DNA of 22,301 nt. Source: a virus. Position 1 is the stretch's first letter. Each line of letters begins with the position of its first letter. The translations under genes and the position numbers were made by a program. The notes under the pieces are model-generated. The model searched no databases, was not told the origin of the DNA, and saw nothing but the letters and a program-made list of their open reading frames with translations. This document shows positions 2,266 to 20,038 of the stretch, one piece after another. The stretch is from IMG/VR virus record IMGVR_UViG_3300006847_000028, positions 1 to 22,301 of that record; one strand, given 5' to 3'.

Positions 2266-2694
2266 GTGGCCCAGACGGAAAGACCCGGCACAAGCTCACG
2301 TGATCCACTGCTTTTGTGTCCGTGCGTGCGTTTGCTCTACGTCCAGTTGAGAGAAAGAGCCGGCGCGGCGGGAAACGAAATCGCACTCATCGAAACCCTC
2401 CGCGACGCCACCCGGCAATCCTACTACCTCGCCATGGGCGTCTCGTGGACGCTCCGTTCGAAACATCTCCCCCAGCCTCCCCACGGCCTCGCCCTCGCGT
2501 TCGACGTCTGCCCCAAGGAGTACTTGGCCGAGAAGAACTGGAATCCCGGCGGGTCGCTCTGGTATGACCTCGGCCGAGAAGCTGAAGAGCTCGGGCTGGA
2601 ATGGGGCGGGAGTTGGATGCAGCGCGACTACCCGCACTTCGCCCTGAGCGAATGTGCGTGCTCCGCGCCGGTCGCCGGCTCCTTGGAGGCATAG
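2266..2694 (+). CDS. Endolysin, M15-family L,D-/D,D-peptidase
   Basis: The product is likely a zinc peptidase that cuts peptide cross-links in peptidoglycan at the end of infection. Visible are the M15 hallmarks: SKHL at residues 65-68, followed by HGLALAFD at 73-80, and DYPHF at 121-125. H67 (or H73), D80 and H124 are the probable zinc ligands, and D121 is a candidate catalytic base. Total length of 142 residues suits a single-domain phage endolysin. I see no signal peptide, so it would need a holin. The start is uncertain: GTG 2266 lies 13 nt after GGAGG (2248-2252), which is long. An ATG at 2253 is in another frame and stops after 16 codons. It sits just after the promoter at 2198-2226. 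Confidence 0.85.
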   Translation: MAQTERPGTSSRDPLLLCPCVRLLYVQLRERAGAAGNEIALIETLRDATRQSYYLAMGVSWTLRSKHLPQPPHGLALAFDVCPKEYLAEKNWNPGGSLWYDLGREAEELGLEWGGSWMQRDYPHFALSECACSAPVAGSLEA

Positions 2695-3147
2695 ATGCGC
2701 TGGTTCATTATTCTCGCTGCCCTGTTCCTGTTCGTGTCCTGCGGCGAAGAGACTCCACTCGCGCCCACGCCTGATCCGACCCCTACACCAATTCCCACGG
2801 CGGAACTGTGCGAGATCCGCGGCACGCGCATCACGTTCGAAAGGGTAGACAAGGGGCACTCGGGCGACATCGTGGTCGCTTGGCCTTTGGGTGTCGTCCC
2901 GCTCGCCCACGCGACTCCGATCTATGCAGGAGCATCGGAGCCCGAATTTGATGTTGACGACTGTCGCTCGTTTGATAGGGTCCGTTGGTGGTGCGTGGGA
3001 GGTATCGGGTGCGAATTCCTCGGAGATCAAAGCAGCTCCTCAGTTTTCCTCAAGATTACGACTCCCGGATTCGCCTGCGTGCGCGCGCAGCCGTTGGATC
3101 TAACGGAATTCGGAGAGGCTTGCATAACCGTACAAGGCCCGGAGTAG
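2695..3147 (+). CDS. Putative lipoprotein, spanin candidate
   Basis: 150 residues start with a short basic and hydrophobic leader (MRWFIILAALFLFVSC). It ends in a lipobox-like FVSC, with Cys16 the probable lipid-anchored residue, although Phe at -3 is unusual. Immediately after comes a Pro/Thr-rich spacer (TPLAPTPDPTPTPIPTAE) typical of proteins tethered to the outer membrane. The rest is a beta-looking domain with several cysteines (DDC, WWC, IGC, FAC, EAC). Position directly behind the endolysin and the Pro-rich linker suggest an Rz1-like or unimolecular spanin, but it is larger than Rz1 and has no C-terminal membrane anchor. An exported surface protein is the alternative. Confidence 0.65.
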   Translation: MRWFIILAALFLFVSCGEETPLAPTPDPTPTPIPTAELCEIRGTRITFERVDKGHSGDIVVAWPLGVVPLAHATPIYAGASEPEFDVDDCRSFDRVRWWCVGGIGCEFLGDQSSSSVFLKITTPGFACVRAQPLDLTEFGEACITVQGPE

Positions 3148-3161
3148 AGGAGGATCAAGGC

Positions 3162-3212
3162 GTGATCTTCCTTCTCGTCATGCTGTTCGGCCTGTTCATC
3201 ATCTTCCGGTGA
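3162..3212 (+). CDS. 16-residue hydrophobic membrane micropeptide
   Basis: GTG 3162 to TGA 3212 encodes MIFLLVMLFGLFIIFR, almost entirely hydrophobic and ending in a single Arg. It is preceded by AGGAGG at 3148-3153 with an ideal 8-nt spacing. Its stop overlaps the GTG of the next gene (GTGA), so it may at least couple translation of that gene. It could be a minimal membrane peptide that assists lysis, or simply a leader ORF. Its length is short for a full bilayer span. The Shine-Dalgarno and the uninterrupted hydrophobicity are the only evidence. Confidence 0.5.
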   Translation: MIFLLVMLFGLFIIFR

Positions 3213-3472
3213 GCGTTAAAGAGACGGTCGCGCTTTGGCTCGCGAAGCGGAAGCTGAAGCAGCTTGAGAAAGAGGGGCGTATGGGATGGCTCGGCAAGAA
3301 TCGTTCATCGGTCGGAGGGTTTCTGGTGGCACTCGGGACCGCGCTCCGCGCCGTCCCGGAGGCGCCGCACGTCGTGATCGAACTCTTGACCTTCGCGGGG
3401 ACGTTCCTCGTCGGTGGAGGTATGACTCCTTCCGACGCCGCGAAGCGTGAGTTCGGGGATCAGGCCAGGTAG
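3209..3472 (+). CDS. Holin-like small membrane protein
   Basis: 87 residues start at GTG 3209, overlapping the micropeptide stop. The N-terminal third is basic and amphipathic (LAKRKLKQLEKEGRMGWLGKNR). Two hydrophobic segments follow, VGGFLVALGTALRAV and VVIELLTFAGTFLVGGGM, separated by PEAPH, then a polar tail. This two-segment hairpin of under 100 residues, next to an endolysin, fits a class II-type holin that makes membrane lesions to release the endolysin. No sequence family is recognised, so holin is inferred from topology and context. Confidence 0.6.
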   Translation: MSVKETVALWLAKRKLKQLEKEGRMGWLGKNRSSVGGFLVALGTALRAVPEAPHVVIELLTFAGTFLVGGGMTPSDAAKREFGDQAR

Positions 3473-3486
3473 GAGGCAACGGCTAC

Positions 3487-3861
3487 TTGTGGAGCCTCTT
3501 CGGGCGCACATCGGGACTTTCGCCAGATGACGAGCGACGAGTCCGCGCGATCGAGGTCGGGCACCACAACCTCGAGGACAAGGTCCGGGACAACCGCCTC
3601 GTCATGGAGAGCGAAGTCAGCACGCTCTCCGCGATGGTCCACGCTCTCCGCGAGGAACTGCACGCCGATCGCAACGCCCGTTTGGAGCTCGGGACGTTGA
3701 ACACCGAAGCCATTCTTCAGGGGTTCAAGGAAGCGAGCGAAGGGATCGTGACGCGTGTGCTTGACTCCGTTTGGTCCAAGTTGGCGCTGGCTCAAGCTGA
3801 TGTGCTTGCGCTCAAGACGCGGGTTAGGTCGCTGGAACTGAGGGGCGAGGATGGCAAGTGA
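3487..3861 (+). CDS. Coiled-coil hypothetical protein
   Basis: 124 residues start at TTG 3487, which has AGGAGG at 3471-3476 ten nt upstream; no better start is in frame. After MWSLFGRTSGLSPDDE the protein is nearly all charged heptad-like helix (VSTLSAMVHALREELHAD; ALKTRVRSLELRGEDGK), so a coiled-coil oligomer is likely. There is no signal peptide or clear membrane segment. It lies between two membrane-type proteins in the lysis block. It could be a soluble lysis regulator or a minor virion protein; function is not known. Confidence 0.6.
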   Translation: MWSLFGRTSGLSPDDERRVRAIEVGHHNLEDKVRDNRLVMESEVSTLSAMVHALREELHADRNARLELGTLNTEAILQGFKEASEGIVTRVLDSVWSKLALAQADVLALKTRVRSLELRGEDGK

Positions 3862-4088
3862 TCGAACTGGTCAAGCGCCTGCTCTTGCGTACCAACTGGC
3901 GGCTAACGGTGGCTACGCTTGGGTGGCTCCTGTCGGAGTACGATCTCGGCCTAGCTTCTCCTGTGCAACGGAAGGCCCTTTCCGGTGCATCGTTTGCTAC
4001 GATCGTCGCCTCGATAGCCTCTTGGCAGAATCGGATCGGGAAGCGTGTTCCACGCGAGCCTCGTGAGGAGCCGAATGACAAACCGTAA
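3858..4088 (+). CDS. Small membrane-associated protein
   Basis: 76 residues start at GTG 3858 inside the previous stop (GTGA). Two weakly hydrophobic stretches are visible, LTVATLGWLLSEY and ASFATIVASIASW, followed by a basic, Pro-rich tail (GKRVPREPREEPNDKP). This gives a second holin-like or accessory lysis candidate. No family is recognised. The 3' end overlaps the next gene by 14 nt, and that gene's Shine-Dalgarno lies inside this coding sequence. Confidence 0.55.
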   Translation: MIELVKRLLLRTNWRLTVATLGWLLSEYDLGLASPVQRKALSGASFATIVASIASWQNRIGKRVPREPREEPNDKP

Positions 4089-4905
4089 GCGTGCGTTGCT
4101 TCTGACGGCCGGCGTAGCAGCTTGGCTGCTCACGTTGGGGATGTGGGTCTCTGCGCAGACCAGCGTGATTTCTGGAGGTGGAGGCGCAGCGACCAGCGTA
4201 AGCGCGGCGGCGTTCCCGCTGAGAGGGCCGGACGGAACGGCAGGAGCGCCGACGTATAGCGCTGCCAGCGACACGGATACGGGAATGTTCTTTGGGGGCG
4301 TGGGCACTGGGATATTGAACTTTACCGTTGACGGCACTACCAGATTTCAGGTTCTCAATTCCGGCGGTTCGGCGGCGATAAGCATTGGCGCTTCTGCGGA
4401 CGCAGGCCTTACCAGGCAGGGCGCAGGTATCCTTCGTGCGGGCAACCCAACCGGTGATGGCTGGATACAGAACGCCGCCGGCGACCAATTCCTCACGGCG
4501 AACCACACGAACGCGACGATCACCCCGACGAACATTACGGATCTGACGACCTCGCTCACGACGACGCGTAAGTATGCGTTTCGGTTCGTGGCGCAGGTTG
4601 ACAACTCCACAGACGCCGATGGGCTAAGGTTTGACTTCGACGGCGGCACGGTCACGGCAACAGACTTCCGCGTGACGTGCAAGACGTTCGCGAACAACGC
4701 CGTGGGGCAAACTCAGCAAACCACCGCGCTCGCTACGGACATCACGCTCGCCACGATAACAGGTACGGGTGAGTTTGAGTGCGATGGCTCGATCGAAACG
4801 AGCAACACGGGCACGCTAATTCCTCGAGCGGCGGGAAACACGGCCGCCAGCGGTACGCTGACGGTGTTCCGCGGATCGCACCTGCTCACACGCGACATGC
4901 CCTAG
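4075..4905 (+). CDS. Secreted protein with tail-fibre-type domains
   Basis: 276 residues start at ATG 4075, behind GAGGAG at 4065-4070. The first 27 residues form a classic signal peptide: basic NRKR, a hydrophobic core, then VSA before Gln28. The mature part starts with a fibre-type repeat (GAPTYSAASDTDTGMFFGG...FTVDGTTRFQV) of the kind seen in many phage fibre proteins. A C-terminal beta domain with DGLRFDFDGGTVTATDFR and TLTVFRGSHLLTRDMP follows. I recall similar C-terminal domains in phage structural proteins. A signal peptide on such a protein is unusual: it may be a surface-displayed or periplasmic protein rather than a virion fibre. The next gene also has a signal peptide. Confidence 0.7.
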   Translation: MTNRKRALLLTAGVAAWLLTLGMWVSAQTSVISGGGGAATSVSAAAFPLRGPDGTAGAPTYSAASDTDTGMFFGGVGTGILNFTVDGTTRFQVLNSGGSAAISIGASADAGLTRQGAGILRAGNPTGDGWIQNAAGDQFLTANHTNATITPTNITDLTTSLTTTRKYAFRFVAQVDNSTDADGLRFDFDGGTVTATDFRVTCKTFANNAVGQTQQTTALATDITLATITGTGEFECDGSIETSNTGTLIPRAAGNTAASGTLTVFRGSHLLTRDMP

Positions 4906-4915
4906 GGAGGATTGA

Positions 4916-5278
4916 ATGCGCAAGCTGCTTTTCCTCGTCGCCGCCGTTTTCACGCTCCCCGCATGGGCGGATTGCAGCGTGGGTCAGACCTCCACGCCGC
5001 AAACGTTCGACTCAGAGAAGATCACCGTTGGAGCTACGGCTGTCGGCTTCACGGGTTCCAAGGTGAACGGGAGCAGCACCGGCCCCTCGGCGCAGCGTGT
5101 CTATTGCTCCGTGGAGACAGACCAGATTCGCTTCTTGGTCCAGGCGATCCCGACGGCTGCGACCGGCGTACTTGTGGCTGCTGGATCGTATTTCGAGGTC
5201 TGCAATACGGACATCCCGCGGTTCTTCGCGATCCGAGTCACGGCGGACGCCACGCTGAATTGCTTGTACCAGCGATAG
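4916..5278 (+). CDS. Small secreted hypothetical protein
   Basis: 120 residues start at ATG 4916 with GGGAGG at 4906-4911. The N-terminus MRKLLFLVAAVFTLPAWA is a clean signal peptide, with likely cleavage after AWA18. The mature domain is about 100 residues, apparently all-beta, with four cysteines (DCS, VYCSV, VCN, LNCLY) that could make two disulfides in the periplasm or outside. No family is recognised. It follows the other signal-peptide protein by only 10 nt, suggesting that the two act in the same compartment. Confidence 0.7.
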   Translation: MRKLLFLVAAVFTLPAWADCSVGQTSTPQTFDSEKITVGATAVGFTGSKVNGSSTGPSAQRVYCSVETDQIRFLVQAIPTAATGVLVAAGSYFEVCNTDIPRFFAIRVTADATLNCLYQR

Positions 5279-7143: not shown

Positions 7144-7572
7144 ATGCGGGATGGGAAAAAGAAGCACCCCGGCGGCAGGCCGAAGGGAAGCAAGAGCAAG
7201 AAAACCCTTGAGAAGCTTGCCCATGAGGCGCTCGTCCGAGAGATGGTTGGAAAGGCTCTCGGCCCCATGACCGAGGCCCAGATCCGCAGCGCTGAAGGCA
7301 TCAAGCATCTCATGTTCCGCGACCCCAAGACGGGCAAGTTCGAGCGGGTGACCGACGAGGCCCAGATGGATGCAGCCCTCGCCAGCGATGGAGAGGCCCA
7401 CTGGATCTACACGAAGGACCCCAGCACGCAGGCGTACACGCAGCTCCTCGATCGCTCCTACGGGCGCCCCACGGAACGGGTACAGGCCGACGTGATGCAC
7501 GAGGCTGGCCCGAAGATGGAGATCCTTCTCCGGAACTTGAAGCGGATCGGCAATGGCAACGGCAGCGCTTGA
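7144..7572 (+). CDS. Probable small terminase subunit
   Basis: 142 residues start at ATG 7144. The assignment rests mainly on position: it directly precedes and overlaps the large terminase by 20 nt, and its size is close to that of small terminases of P22-type phages. The N-terminus is basic with an AT-hook-like GGRPKGSKSKKT, suited to DNA recognition. The remainder is helical with TQAYTQLLDRSYGRPTERVQ, a phrase I associate with phage DNA-packaging or terminase-adjacent proteins. It would recognise packaging DNA and regulate the ATPase. Start selection is odd because there is no Shine-Dalgarno and a hairpin lies right before the ATG. Confidence 0.65.
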   Translation: MRDGKKKHPGGRPKGSKSKKTLEKLAHEALVREMVGKALGPMTEAQIRSAEGIKHLMFRDPKTGKFERVTDEAQMDAALASDGEAHWIYTKDPSTQAYTQLLDRSYGRPTERVQADVMHEAGPKMEILLRNLKRIGNGNGSA

Positions 7573-9253: not shown

Positions 9254-9637
9254 ATGCATCTCGTCCGATCAGTCACCGAGGGGGCTCCACAGCAAGGGGC
9301 GAGCACTCCAGTCCAGACGACCATTGGAGCGGCGGCCGCTCAGGTGGTCGCGCTCAACCGCAAGCGCAAGGGCCTGATCATCCAAAACACCGGGCTCACC
9401 ACGCTCAAGTTCTGCTACGGCAGCACGTCCCCGACGCAGACTGTCTACCACTTCGCGCTGAAGGCATGTTCCTTGGCCGATGATGGTTCAGGCGGCGTGA
9501 TGCTGGAGGAGAACTGGATCGGTCCGGTTCAAGGCATCTCAAGCGGCGCGGGCGGGACGTTCGTCCTGACGGAGATAACCGCGGCGGGTGCTTCGCCCAC
9601 GTGGGACGCCAATGCGGATTGGGGATCGAGTGGGTAG
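9254..9637 (+). CDS. Probable virion protein, beta-structured
   Basis: 127 residues start at ATG 9254, 10 nt after the previous stop, with TAGGAGCG upstream. The sequence NRKRKGLIIQNTGLTTLKF, followed by a strand-rich Gly/Thr/Ser region, resembles small phage structural proteins that carry a beta-sandwich (recalled pattern: KGLIIQNTG...L.FG). A decoration or fibre-base protein is likely. It overlaps the larger fibre-type gene by 26 nt, which points to a shared particle role. Confidence 0.6.
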   Translation: MHLVRSVTEGAPQQGASTPVQTTIGAAAAQVVALNRKRKGLIIQNTGLTTLKFCYGSTSPTQTVYHFALKACSLADDGSGGVMLEENWIGPVQGISSGAGGTFVLTEITAAGASPTWDANADWGSSG

Positions 9638-11348
9638 GACGATCATCGTCCCGGGTGGCGCTGCGGGTGGCGCCGGGATCACGAATATCAACGTGTCCGC
9701 CGGGACGACGAGTAACAACCTCTCGAACCTGACATTCGCAGACTCTCCGACTGTCAGCTTCGGGCTCGACGGCTCGACCATCACGGCTTCGGCTGCAGGT
9801 GGCGGAGCGCCGGCGACGTTGGCTCACCCGGTTGCAAGCGCGAACAGCGTAGGAACGGCGCCAAGGGTTGCGCTCGAGGACCACCGGCATGCCGGCGTCT
9901 TCAGCATGGGCGCGTCGAACGTGGGGAACACAGCGGGCGATACGCGGGTGGATGTCGGGCGGTTCGTGCTGGCCGGCGGGAATAACGTGACCTTGTCCCA
10001 GGCGACGGCCGCGAACGCCTTGAACACGATCTCTATCGTTGGGGCGACGCTGACCAATTCAAGCTGGACGGTGAGCGACAACGCCACGTCGGGGACTGTG
10101 GCTCGGCTGGCGTTCACGAACCTCAACGGGGTGACGCTGTCCTTGAGCTCGGGCGCTGCGGGGCAACACACCATCGTCGGCAGCCACAACGCCTTGACGT
10201 CCCAGAGCAACCAGGCTTTCAGCGCGGCGGGAGGGTCGAGCGCGTTCCAGACGCTCAGCTTCAGCGACAACGCCTACCTGTCGTGGACGAACAACGCCGG
10301 CCAAGTAGCGGTCACCGAGATCCGCGGCTCGTTCTTCGCGACCGGGAACACGACCCAGTCATCGAGCAACACGATCAACCTTGATACCGTGATCTTCCGG
10401 GGGTCGGGCGCCGCGTCGGTCGGAGTGAGCAACGGCTCGATCATTGTGGACGTGCAGGCAGGTGCAGCCGCGATCACGCAGAGCATCGGGATGAGCACGC
10501 AGACTGCTGGGGGTGCCACCGCTGGAACCACAGGTTACGCTACCGGCGACGACATCCTTTACCACTTTGTCCCCGGCTCGAACATCACCATGAGCCAGAG
10601 TATCGACGGGGCGAGCGGAACGCTGTCGGTTTACGGTCCGGCCGGCAACACGCTGTCCGCGCCAAGTCTCGGCATCTTCAACAACCTCAACGCCGCGGGC
10701 GACTCAGTGGGTGAGCCGAGGCGCAGCTTCGTCTTCGCCGGCTCGCACCGCTCTCTCGCCATCTATCCTTTGGTCGCGGCGCCGTGGGGTGGTCCTTTCC
10801 CTGGCGACCTGACGTGCAACACGTTCTACTATCGCATGTCGCTGTCGGGCTCGACTGCCACGATGAGCCAGGCGTTCACGTCCACGTTCCGCATCGGGAT
10901 TTACACCCAGAACGCGTCGTCTCTCAGCCTGCTCAACTCGGTGGAGGTGACGTTCGGATCGGGCGCAGCGAACGCGAACCTTTCGACGCTCTTCGTGGGC
11001 AATCGCTACCTGACCATCGATGCCACCGCTTGGTCCTCGAGCCCAGTGTTCCGGTTCGGCTCGATCTACTATATCGCCACGAACCACGATACTGCGGGCG
11101 TCTCGAATCAGACGGGCCAGTTCTCCGGTGGCTACATCTGGGCCTCCAACTCTCTGTCTCACTCCGGGACCATCGGAGTGGCGACGGCGAACAACACCAC
11201 GATGGGCCTTCATCCTTGGATCGGGATGTGGTCAGCGACGACCAACGCCTTCCCGGTCAGCATCGCGTCGAACGCGGTGAACAAGCAGAGTCCTATCGTT
11301 GTGGTCCCGCCGTTGATCCTTAATCAGAACAACCCAGCGAGCTTCTAG
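9612..11348 (+). CDS. Tail-fibre-like protein (candidate receptor-binding)
   Basis: 578 residues from ATG 9612; GTG 9630 is an alternative start just before the previous stop. Composition is Ser/Thr/Asn/Gly/Ala-rich and almost free of charge, as in extended beta fibres. HPVASANSVGTAPRVALEDH followed by RHAG matches the fibre motif A-x-x-x-G-x-x-x-x-x-(R)-E-D-H-x-H that recurs in phage fibres. Repetitive strands follow (NNVTLSQ, NGVTLSLS, NITMSQS), and the C-terminal 230 residues look like a separate globular domain (SHRSLAIYPLVAAPWGGPFP onward). It probably binds host surface structures. The neighbouring glycosyltransferase and methyltransferase support a glycan-linked role. Confidence 0.75.
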   Translation: MRIGDRVGRTIIVPGGAAGGAGITNINVSAGTTSNNLSNLTFADSPTVSFGLDGSTITASAAGGGAPATLAHPVASANSVGTAPRVALEDHRHAGVFSMGASNVGNTAGDTRVDVGRFVLAGGNNVTLSQATAANALNTISIVGATLTNSSWTVSDNATSGTVARLAFTNLNGVTLSLSSGAAGQHTIVGSHNALTSQSNQAFSAAGGSSAFQTLSFSDNAYLSWTNNAGQVAVTEIRGSFFATGNTTQSSSNTINLDTVIFRGSGAASVGVSNGSIIVDVQAGAAAITQSIGMSTQTAGGATAGTTGYATGDDILYHFVPGSNITMSQSIDGASGTLSVYGPAGNTLSAPSLGIFNNLNAAGDSVGEPRRSFVFAGSHRSLAIYPLVAAPWGGPFPGDLTCNTFYYRMSLSGSTATMSQAFTSTFRIGIYTQNASSLSLLNSVEVTFGSGAANANLSTLFVGNRYLTIDATAWSSSPVFRFGSIYYIATNHDTAGVSNQTGQFSGGYIWASNSLSHSGTIGVATANNTTMGLHPWIGMWSATTNAFPVSIASNAVNKQSPIVVVPPLILNQNNPASF

Positions 11349-13452: not shown

Positions 13453-14294
13453 GAGGTTCCTGGTTGAGAAAGCTCCTGTTGGTCCTGCTGTTTGCCCTGC
13501 CTGCTGAAGCGGCTGCGCCGGGGTGGATTGTGTCGTGTGCTTACTCGCACAGCCTTTCGGACGATCCCATCGTGTTTCCGAATCAGCCCGGCGCGAGCCA
13601 TCTTCACGACTTCGCCGGCAGCTTGGGCACTCGAGCGAACTCCACCGTCGATCAGATGAGAGCAGCGGGGACCACGTGCGCGATCGGGGGCGACACCTCG
13701 GGGTACTGGGTTCCGGCGCTCTACATCCACGGATCGCAGAGGCTGCGAGTGCTGCCCAAGGCGCAGGGAACGAAGAACGCGCTCTTCTACTACCGCCGCA
13801 AGGGTGCTCCGTCCGGGACGACGGTCAGAGCCTTCCCCGCGGGGCTCAAAATGGTGATCGGCAACGGCCACGCCCAGACGCCAGCCGAGAATCCGCTGCT
13901 TGGGACTCAGATCACGTGGAAGTGCGGGCCGGGGTCCGGAACGGACACGCCGAGGCCTCCCGCGCAGTGCGGATCGGGCACGATGGTCCTGAGCATGACG
14001 TTTCCGAACTGCTGGAACGGTCGGGATCTGGACTCGCCGGACCACATCAGCCACATGCGCTATCCGAGCGGATCGAGGTGCCCGACGTCTCATCCCATCG
14101 TCCTTCCGAGGATCGAGTCATTCTGGCGCTACAACGTGGGGACTCAACCGATTGGGGAGGTGAACCTCGCGAGCGGGCCGGATTTCACCGCGCACGGGGA
14201 TTTCATGGACGCGTGGATTCCGACGGCGTTGCAGTCGCTCCTGAATCGCTGCATCAACGCCAACACGGATTGCGGCACGAATCCTCAGCCATGA
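13449..14294 (+). CDS. Secreted DUF1996-like protein
   Basis: 281 residues start at ATG 13449 (ATGA overlap); the open frame reaches upstream to 13419, but this start gives a proper signal peptide, MRGSWLRKLLLVLLFALPAE followed by AAA. Signatures of the DUF1996 family are visible in order: DDPIVFP (39-44), GASHLHDF (48-55), SGYWVPALY (84-92), FPNCWNGRDLDSPDHISHM (185-203), CPTSHPIVLP (211-220) and HGDFMDAW (249-256). Eight cysteines fit disulfides outside the cytoplasm. The family is known from fungi and bacteria as secreted proteins, sometimes beside carbohydrate-binding modules; its activity is unassigned. Conserved His and Asp suggest a metal or glycan site. Possible roles are host surface degradation or superinfection exclusion. 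Confidence 0.8.
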   Translation: MRGSWLRKLLLVLLFALPAEAAAPGWIVSCAYSHSLSDDPIVFPNQPGASHLHDFAGSLGTRANSTVDQMRAAGTTCAIGGDTSGYWVPALYIHGSQRLRVLPKAQGTKNALFYYRRKGAPSGTTVRAFPAGLKMVIGNGHAQTPAENPLLGTQITWKCGPGSGTDTPRPPAQCGSGTMVLSMTFPNCWNGRDLDSPDHISHMRYPSGSRCPTSHPIVLPRIESFWRYNVGTQPIGEVNLASGPDFTAHGDFMDAWIPTALQSLLNRCINANTDCGTNPQP

Positions 14295-14482
14295 CTGCGA
14301 GTCTCAGTTTCCCGGTAAGGCCAGACATCGAGCGCAAGCAGCACCTTCTTGCTCTCCACGCGACGATGGTCGAGTACCTTCAAGCGAAGTCACGGGACGG
14401 AGACTGGCATGGCGTTTCTGATGCGGCTTGCGACCTCCGGGAGATCGAGGCGGAACTCAGAGGGCTAAGGGCAGGGGACTGA
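14291..14482 (+). CDS. Small helical protein before the portal
   Basis: 63 residues start at ATG 14291 (ATGA). A much longer frame opens upstream at 13523 but only shadows the secreted-protein gene. The protein is a helical pair (QHLLALHATMVEYLQAKSRD; SDAACDLREIEAELRGLRAG) with a conserved-looking DWHGVSDAA turn. I recall similar small proteins next to portal genes in P22-type phages. It overlaps the portal start by one base (TGATG). Confidence 0.65.
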   Translation: MTASLSFPVRPDIERKQHLLALHATMVEYLQAKSRDGDWHGVSDAACDLREIEAELRGLRAGD

Positions 14483-18166: not shown

Positions 18167-19393
18167 ATGGCGAATACGCTGTTGACCCCCTCCTGGACCT
18201 TGAAAGAGGTCGGGAGGAACTATGAGAACTCGCTGAAGTTCATCGCCAACGTGGAAAGGAAGTACTCTTCGGAGTACGTCCAGGCAGGAGCGAAGGTCGG
18301 CAACACGATCAACTATCGTCTCCCGCAGCGTTGGCAAGTGAGCGACGGCCAGGCTCTCGACGTTCAGAACATCCTCGATCAGACGGTTCCGATCAGCTTG
18401 ACGAACCAAAAGCACGTGGACATGGCGTGGTCCGCGTGGCAGGAGACGACCGAAGTCGAGGACGTGCAGGAGCGCTACATCAAGACGGCGTCCGACGCTC
18501 TGGCCTCCGTCGTGGATGGTCTCGCGTTCAACAACGTCTTCCGTGACGTCTGGAACGAGATCGGAACCCTCGGCACAACTCCGTCCACCACCCTCTTGTA
18601 CCTCCAGGGCAACCGGAAGCTGACTGACATGTCATCCCCGCGTCCTGGGCGCGTCGCGGTCCTCGATCCCGAGGCCGCGGCCGTCATCGCCAACAGCACG
18701 ACCACCCTGTTCAACCCGCAGGCCATCATCTCGGAGAACTACCGCGACGGCATGTTGGGTCGGGGACAACTCGGAATCGGCGAATGGTACGAGGATCAGA
18801 ACCGTCCGGGCTTCCTGTCCGGCGAGGCAACGACGGCGAGCACCCCGCTCGTCAACGGCGCTTCGCAGACGGGCTCGAGCCTGATCACCGATGGTTGGGG
18901 CACCGCAAACCTCAAGCGCGGCGACATCTTCACGGCGGGCGGGGTTTTCTCCGTCAACCGGCTGAGCTACATCTCGACTGCGCGTCTACAGCAGTTTGTC
19001 CTGACCGCGGACGTTTCCGCCGCGGCCGGCGCTGCGACGCTCAGCATTTCGCCGCCGATCATCACGAGCGGACCTCTTCAGACGGTGACCGCCTCCCCGG
19101 CGGACAACGCGGTTGTCACTTACTGGTCGATGGCTCCCGGCGGCACGTTCGCCGCGACCGCTTCCCCGACGGGCATGATCTTCCATCCGGAGGCTTTCGC
19201 CTTCGTGACGGCGGATCTTGCGATGCCGGGTGGCGGCGCGAAGGCGTCTCGCATCCAGAGCAAGGCTCGCGGGGTTGCACTCCGCATGGCCGAGCAGTGG
19301 GATGTGCAGAGCGACCAGAACATCACCCGCATCGACACGATCGTCGGTGCTGCCACTCTCCGTGCTGAGTGGGCCTGCCGAGTGCAGGGTTAG
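18167..19393 (+). CDS. Major capsid protein, P22 gp5-like coat protein
   Basis: 408 residues start at ATG 18167, six nt after AGGGG. The opening LTPSWTLKEVGRNYENSLKF and NVERKYSSEYVQAGAKVGNT, INYRLPQRWQVSDGQALDVQ and QTVPISLTNQKHVDMAWSAW are strongly characteristic of the P22 coat family, an HK97-fold shell protein. The middle holds the strand-rich insertion region (GSSLITDGWGTANLKRGDIF; PGGTFAATASPTGMIFHPEA), and the end (ALRMAEQWDVQSDQNITRID) is the conserved P-domain/A-domain strand. Length is close to the 430 residues of P22 gp5. Its place after the scaffold and before a decoration-like gene is canonical. Confidence 0.95.
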   Translation: MANTLLTPSWTLKEVGRNYENSLKFIANVERKYSSEYVQAGAKVGNTINYRLPQRWQVSDGQALDVQNILDQTVPISLTNQKHVDMAWSAWQETTEVEDVQERYIKTASDALASVVDGLAFNNVFRDVWNEIGTLGTTPSTTLLYLQGNRKLTDMSSPRPGRVAVLDPEAAAVIANSTTTLFNPQAIISENYRDGMLGRGQLGIGEWYEDQNRPGFLSGEATTASTPLVNGASQTGSSLITDGWGTANLKRGDIFTAGGVFSVNRLSYISTARLQQFVLTADVSAAAGAATLSISPPIITSGPLQTVTASPADNAVVTYWSMAPGGTFAATASPTGMIFHPEAFAFVTADLAMPGGGAKASRIQSKARGVALRMAEQWDVQSDQNITRIDTIVGAATLRAEWACRVQG

Positions 19394-19402
19394 GAGGCTC
19401 CC

Positions 19403-20038
19403 TTGGCGCTTACTAGAACCACTTTGGCTTCGGCCTTCGCAATCGGTGATGCCCAGATCGTTGTGGCTTCGGCCACGGGCTTCGCCGCCGGTCGCATCGT
19501 CCGTATCGACGACGAGTTCTTCGTCGTGCAGTCCAACTATTCCTCGGGTGTCACCATCCCGGTTCGTGCGGGGCAGTTGGCTACGCAGAGCACGGCTCAC
19601 GTCGCCTCGGCAGGTGTGGTCGTCGGTACGGCTGCGGACGACTGGGACAGCCCCGGCTCCAACGTGCGCTCGAACAGCCCGCTTTCGGGCCGAGCGCGGC
19701 GCACGGTGTCCATCACCACGACTCCCTCCACCTTGACGCTACCCACGGCGGGATCGGATACCACCGTGATCCTCAACGGTACCGGCGCCATCGCGTTGAC
19801 GGTTCCGGTTCCGACGACGGACATGGACGGCGACACCATCATGTTTACGAACAACGGTGCGGTCGCCCATACGCTTACGTTCACGGGCGGCCTCGGCGGT
19901 GTCGGTGCCACGGCGGATGTGGTCACTTTCAAGGCCGATCAGAAGCAAGCCGTCCTCGTCGTGGCCTGTAACGCAACTTGGAACCTCGTCGGCGTGGTCG
20001 GTGGCGCGGCGACGGTTGCGGGCGCGGGTCTGGCGTAA
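19403..20038 (+). CDS. Probable capsid decoration/structural protein
   Basis: 211 residues start at TTG 19403, five nt after AGGAGG (19392-19397). The protein is Ala/Thr/Val/Gly-rich and probably all beta. It opens LTRTTLASAFAIGDAQIVVA, with RIVRIDDEFFVVQSNYSSGV as a first domain (about 1-75) and TPSTLTLPTAGSDTTVILNG plus DGDTIMFTNNGAVAHTLTFT as a second. Such two-domain beta proteins often follow P22-type coat genes in environmental phages and are thought to be decoration or minor head proteins. The gene is followed by an intrinsic terminator, so it and the coat share a high-level transcript. Confidence 0.65.
   Translation: MALTRTTLASAFAIGDAQIVVASATGFAAGRIVRIDDEFFVVQSNYSSGVTIPVRAGQLATQSTAHVASAGVVVGTAADDWDSPGSNVRSNSPLSGRARRTVSITTTPSTLTLPTAGSDTTVILNGTGAIALTVPVPTTDMDGDTIMFTNNGAVAHTLTFTGGLGGVGATADVVTFKADQKQAVLVVACNATWNLVGVVGGAATVAGAGLA

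Follow-up and report, generated by a model that had tools for sequence, protein, structure and literature searches.

The export of virion proteins is a classical feature of filamentous phages, whose coat proteins pVIII and pIII are virion proteins with cleavable Sec signal peptides. For tailed phages, the current view places both synthesis and assembly of virion proteins in the cytoplasm, and we found no report of exported fiber- or decoration-type proteins in tailed phages in the literature searched (preprints and most subscription journals excluded). Lysis proteins of tailed phages, e.g., T4 RI, are known to have cleavable signal peptides (PMC8385771).

We looked into two adjacent genes, 4075-4905 and 4916-5278 (hereafter 4075 and 4916), of a tailed phage represented by a 22,301-base IMG/VR virus record (the window, i.e., the whole stretch of DNA analyzed). 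The phage shares with filamentous phages virion-type proteins with cleavable Sec signal peptides, which are predicted here, but filamentous phages assemble in the membrane and are extruded, whereas the window carries lysis genes and, instead of the filamentous-phage gene set, a terminase at 7553, a P22-type portal at 14482 (Pfam, E = 3e-121), and a coat gene at 18167. The pair resembles the Q-rule genes of Porphyromonas gingivalis phage in having a signal peptide with Gln at +1 (in 4075), but those genes are of unknown function, whereas the pair consists of fiber- and decoration-type modules (PMC10367356). A lipobox at the cleavage site, as in superinfection-exclusion lipoproteins of the T5 Llp type, was found in neither gene, the residues being VSA/QT in 4075 and WAD-C in 4916 (a slash marks the predicted cleavage site).

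Two genes with predicted signal peptides behind the lysis region

Both genes lie on the late strand, right 3' of the lysis region, and identical copies of the proteins occur in IMG/VR contigs 3300050501_000094 (35,967 bases) and 3300050510_000106. The relevant features of the window are the following.

2332..4088, + strand: lysis region, immediately 5' of the pair (endolysin match and gene calls)
2332-2694, + strand: endolysin (phrog_465, E = 3.5e-14)
2695-3147, + strand: predicted lipoprotein (gene call)
3209-3472, 3487-3861, and 3858-4088, + strand: small membrane/coiled genes (gene calls)
4075..4155, + strand: predicted signal peptide of the fiber-type protein, MTNRKRALLLTAGVAAWLLTLGMWVSA followed by QT, 27 aa, Gln at +1
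4156..4905, + strand: mature fiber-type protein, 249 aa plus stop (gene call, codon model)
4231..4299, + strand: fiber module DGTAGAPTYSAASDTDTGMFF and neighbors, residues 53-75 (HMM of ordinary non-exported fibers, E = 1e-4)
4522..4902, + strand: C-terminal part with DGLRFDFDGGT (from the sequence)
4916..4969, + strand: predicted signal peptide of the small protein, MRKLLFLVAAVFTLPAWA followed by DC, 18 aa, cleavage AWA/DC
4970..5278, + strand: mature small jelly-roll-like protein, 102 aa with 4 Cys, plus stop (AlphaFold2 pLDDT 79, pTM 0.69)
18167..19393, + strand: major coat protein (phrog_283), a landmark
19403..20038, + strand: post-coat protein lacking a signal peptide (one is present, in the same place, in the homologues of 12 related phages)

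We infer a lysis role for the genes beside the endolysin in 2332..4088. The 150-aa product of 2695-3147, directly 3' of the endolysin, is a predicted lipoprotein with lipobox FVSC and without a family match.

Gene 4075 encodes 276 aa behind the Shine-Dalgarno sequence GAGGAG and shares 14 nt with the gene before it (3858-4088); 4916 starts 10 nt after it and encodes 120 aa behind GGGAGG. The codon model retained both as genes, with the signal peptides at preferred start codons. Signal peptides were called with one heuristic rule for all genes (n, h, and c regions plus the -3/-1 rule), and both proteins have the three regions and obey the -3/-1 rule. The signal peptide and VSA-Gln cleavage that the original prediction gave the 276-residue protein were thereby recovered, as was the second small secreted protein 10 nt downstream. 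The rule scored positive in 9/3,938 random internal segments (0.2%). Shuffling of the first 30 residues gave a matching score in 1/2,000 cases for 4916 and 129/2,000 for 4075; the latter has a long hydrophobic core (∼19 residues), so that 4075 by itself is less clear-cut. Gln occupied +1 in 21 of 69 phage cleavage sites (30%), compared to 6 to 9% at later positions and 2/31 in bacterial contigs; this enrichment is specific to +1 and thus supports real cleavage. A high frequency of Gln at +1 is the Q-rule of Bacteroidetes (PMC5837995), so the hosts may follow something similar.

We also considered that phage signal peptides might be gene-calling artifacts and rejected this: six of the seven matches in the control start at base 2 of a cut contig. 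Without these artifacts, signal peptides occur in ∼1/330 control genes versus 35/762 genes in TerL relatives; with them kept, the raw Fisher p is 0.06.

We then analyzed the fiber-like part of 4075. An HMM built solely from three ordinary, non-exported fibers matched the module in 4075 and, with E = 5e-7, in its homologue in the related phage L012. The module is that of tail fibers with DGTAGAPTY/DTDTGMF, which differ from 4075 in having N-terminal adaptors. Used to gather 80 viral loci, 66 of them with an intact N terminus, it retrieved no fiber with a signal peptide (0/66) by the test applied to 4075, which shows that export is unusual for this module and that the test does not over-call. 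Judged by its sequence, the fiber-like part of 4075 is genuine and small (the PHROG tail-fiber match is weak, E = 0.008 over residues 54-98), whereas the fiber-like repeats also proposed for it did not appear in a self-comparison. An N-terminal virion-anchoring domain is absent: the N terminus consists of the signal peptide and a short Gly-rich linker, with only ∼25 residues before the module. The signal peptide thus occupies the position of the virion anchor of ordinary fibers, leaving no known attachment domain. Mature 4075 contains just two Cys (codons 4678-4680 and 4780-4782), both in the C-terminal part; the first is aligned with a Cys in the L012 homologue. The DGLRFDFDGGT part had no database match, and AlphaFold2 gave no usable model of 4075 (pLDDT 31). 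For both 4075 and 4916, Pfam and NCBIfam, tblastn against 50,697 phage records, and a sequence search of the PDB yielded no match, or none that was significant in the PDB.

The mature 4916 protein has as its fold neighbors in BFVD small uncharacterized proteins of tailed phages. It resembles such jelly-roll-like proteins, including one of MW202577, in predicted fold, but unlike them it carries a signal peptide, and its mature form contains four Cys. The best PDB matches by fold were the disulfide-linked Ena pilus of Bacillus (TM 0.37) and cupins, all with E > 1e-3, and we therefore limit the claim to a jelly-roll-like topology.

Signal-peptide genes in related phages

TerL relatives were taken from viral and bacterial contigs, with genes called by the codon model and signal peptides by the same rule. 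In L012, whose TerL is 66% identical to that of the window phage, lysis-type genes are followed by an exported module-bearing fiber, two further exported proteins (of 1,301 and 120 aa), and the terminase. The fiber (L012:1359-3002) is the homologue of 4075, with 33% identity over 152 aa that include the signal peptide. The 1,301-aa protein between the exported fiber and the exported small gene (L012:3005-6910) combines a signal peptide with 15 Cys and with a domain that is putatively Ig (He_PIG).

Signal peptides are also found in the 4916 family in eight more phages (L015, L193, L227, L232, L233, L234, L237, and L238), so that homologues of both genes have them; the original prediction, which would have been refuted by their absence from homologues, is supported on this point. 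The L015 protein, 34% identical to 4916 over 126 aa, keeps the signal peptide, and in L193, L233, L234, L237, and L238 the family member adjoins another signal-peptide gene, fiber-like in several. Members without a signal peptide occur in L228-L231, L235, and L236, and those in L228-L231 and L236 show that non-exported homologues can contain two Cys as well. A further non-exported relative, in MW202577, is 33% identical to the L227 member and lies 3' of a likely capsid gene, called by size and position with no database match.

Other signal-peptide genes were seen in these phages. The 981-aa fiber-like protein of L236 (6233-9178) and a laminin-G lectin (9461-10264; PF13385) both have a signal peptide and adjoin the non-exported 4916-family member. 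GenBank genome MW202554 encodes two signal-peptide proteins 3' of the portal gene, one of 846 aa and the other a laminin-G lectin. Just 3' of the portal in L016 (7480-8142) and L018 (13949-14611) is a signal-peptide protein with a PEP-CTERM motif (PF07589, E = 8e-7), which suggests that these phages encode a surface protein for sorting by the host. In L232 (586-1575), a signal peptide precedes what resembles a common phage-fiber N terminus (FDYVAGQVI...), and a scan for relatives gave four loci only.

The post-coat gene with and without a predicted signal peptide

The gene directly 3' of the coat gene (19403-20038 in the window) forms a homologous family, of which 12 phages have a version with a signal peptide and 18, the window included, a version without. 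Its domain is also present in annotated tail sheath, sheath stabilizer, and baseplate wedge proteins of cyanophages. The number of mature Cys is even in all 12 exported versions and in 11 of the 18 non-exported ones (7 odd), a count to which L042 was added as the 12th exported protein, with a gene start set by hand and a signal peptide that can be read as the lipoprotein type. For the 11 others compared with the 18, Cys parity differs with a Fisher p of 0.026. The Cys counts of exported and non-exported proteins also differ (Mann-Whitney p = 4e-4). In the alignment of these 11 with the 18, Cys is found at column 173 in 9/11 exported versus 0/18 non-exported proteins and at column 217 in 11/11 versus 1/18. 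Such pairing of Cys in exported versions is what an oxidizing compartment predicts. Given the well-supported branches of the TerL tree, the exported and non-exported labels must have changed at least three times, and the Cys association rests on three independent tree pairs only, which is not enough for a test with phylogenetic correction.

The exported gene is the sole family member in G007 (43 kb), G008 (37 kb), G009, G011 (44 kb), and G013 (38 kb), records that may be incomplete; G010 (40 kb), also of the exported type, has one additional weak domain match. As a sole copy in long records, the exported form appears to replace the non-exported one and not to supplement it. The only bacterial contig found with an exported post-coat gene was L089, a 28-kb contig of an Eisenbacteria MAG. 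None of 46 other genomes of this phylum has such a gene, and the L089 contig may therefore be a contamination.

Possible destinations of the proteins

The recurrence in relatives of signal peptides on virion-type parts, together with paired Cys, indicates that some phage particle-type proteins are apparently sent outside the cytoplasm. From the signal-peptide sequences, the virion-type modules, their recurrence, the paired Cys, and the late or structural gene positions, we infer cleavage and, with good confidence for this phage group, export and probable disulfide bonding of the proteins; our confidence is somewhat lower for 4075 alone.

As a tentative explanation, we propose that 4075 and 4916 are virion-type fiber/decoration proteins that join virions at lysis. 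The host Sec system would export both, and signal peptidase I would trim them; they would fold and form disulfides in the periplasm and would be added to finished cytoplasmic virions, as late decorations or fibers, once lysis breaches the inner membrane. We favor such late attachment because exported genes fill structural slots and because capsid decoration proteins are generally able to add to finished heads. The 1,301-aa Ig-domain protein of L012 and the PEP-CTERM protein of L016/L018, which look non-virion, speak against it, as do the loss of any known attachment domain from 4075, the signal-peptide-free fiber-type protein L239:11025-12158 of the nearest 36-kb relative, the two Cys of non-exported 4916 homologues, and the small number of independent tree pairs behind the Cys association.

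A close second, possible although we find it rather doubtful, is that the proteins are exported but do not enter virions. They would serve as adhesins or decoys, either free or bound to a surface, masking receptors on the infected cell or on debris, or would alter the cell surface. The replacement of the virion anchor of 4075 by a signal peptide, the lectin-like and PEP-CTERM signal-peptide proteins of a few relatives, and the presence in the window phage of further fiber-type proteins that are not exported would all fit, as would the signal-peptide genes of P. gingivalis phages, which have been interpreted as possibly modifying the outer membrane of the host (PMC10367356). However, neither a lipobox nor an outer-membrane sorting signal was recognized in 4075 or 4916, and in a two-membrane host Sec alone ends in the periplasm. 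Moreover, no similarity could be detected between mature 4075 and the genes at 9612 and 20088, or between it and L239:11025-12158, another non-exported fiber-type protein of the same phage. The suggestion that the pair are receptor mimics binding the ligand of the virion fiber is thus unsupported. The original prediction of virion-type domains paired behind signal peptides holds, and a display or exclusion role is possible but not favored, since in several long relatives the exported post-coat form is the sole copy in the structural slot of the non-exported form.

It is improbable that the N termini are uncleaved membrane anchors, or are used in the virion (e.g., as a membrane-inserting tip), and not export signals. 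The long hydrophobic stretch of 4075, with its score matched in 6% of shuffles, would suit an anchor, but 4916 and most relatives have typical n, h, and c regions, Gln is enriched exactly at +1, and Cys are paired in exported versions. Host-benefit (moron) genes expressed from a prophage and unrelated to virions are very unlikely: a tyrosine integrase (PF00589, E = 4.6e-20) is encoded by the L012 phage, but the called genes of the 36-kb relative nearest to the window phage include no recognized integrase, and the genes in question occupy the late strand immediately 3' of the lysis region or are situated within structural blocks.

Extending the late-attachment proposal to the group is more speculative: a large uncultivated group of tailed phages might build virions from two compartments, with cytoplasmic heads and tails and periplasmic, disulfide-bonded fibers or decorations added at lysis, the same gene having switched forms several times. 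A pattern of exported particle-type proteins is not what standard models of tailed-phage assembly would lead one to expect. The repeated addition of signal peptides and Cys pairs to virion-type genes would point to a periplasmic step of virion maturation or to a widespread class of phage-secreted adhesins, and either outcome would alter the annotation of such genes in viral metagenomes.

Finally, between the terminase and portal genes, the window encodes at 13464-14294 a DUF1996 protein (PF09362, E = 1.5e-46) that carries a signal peptide and contains eight Cys in its mature form; it is probably another exported protein of this phage.
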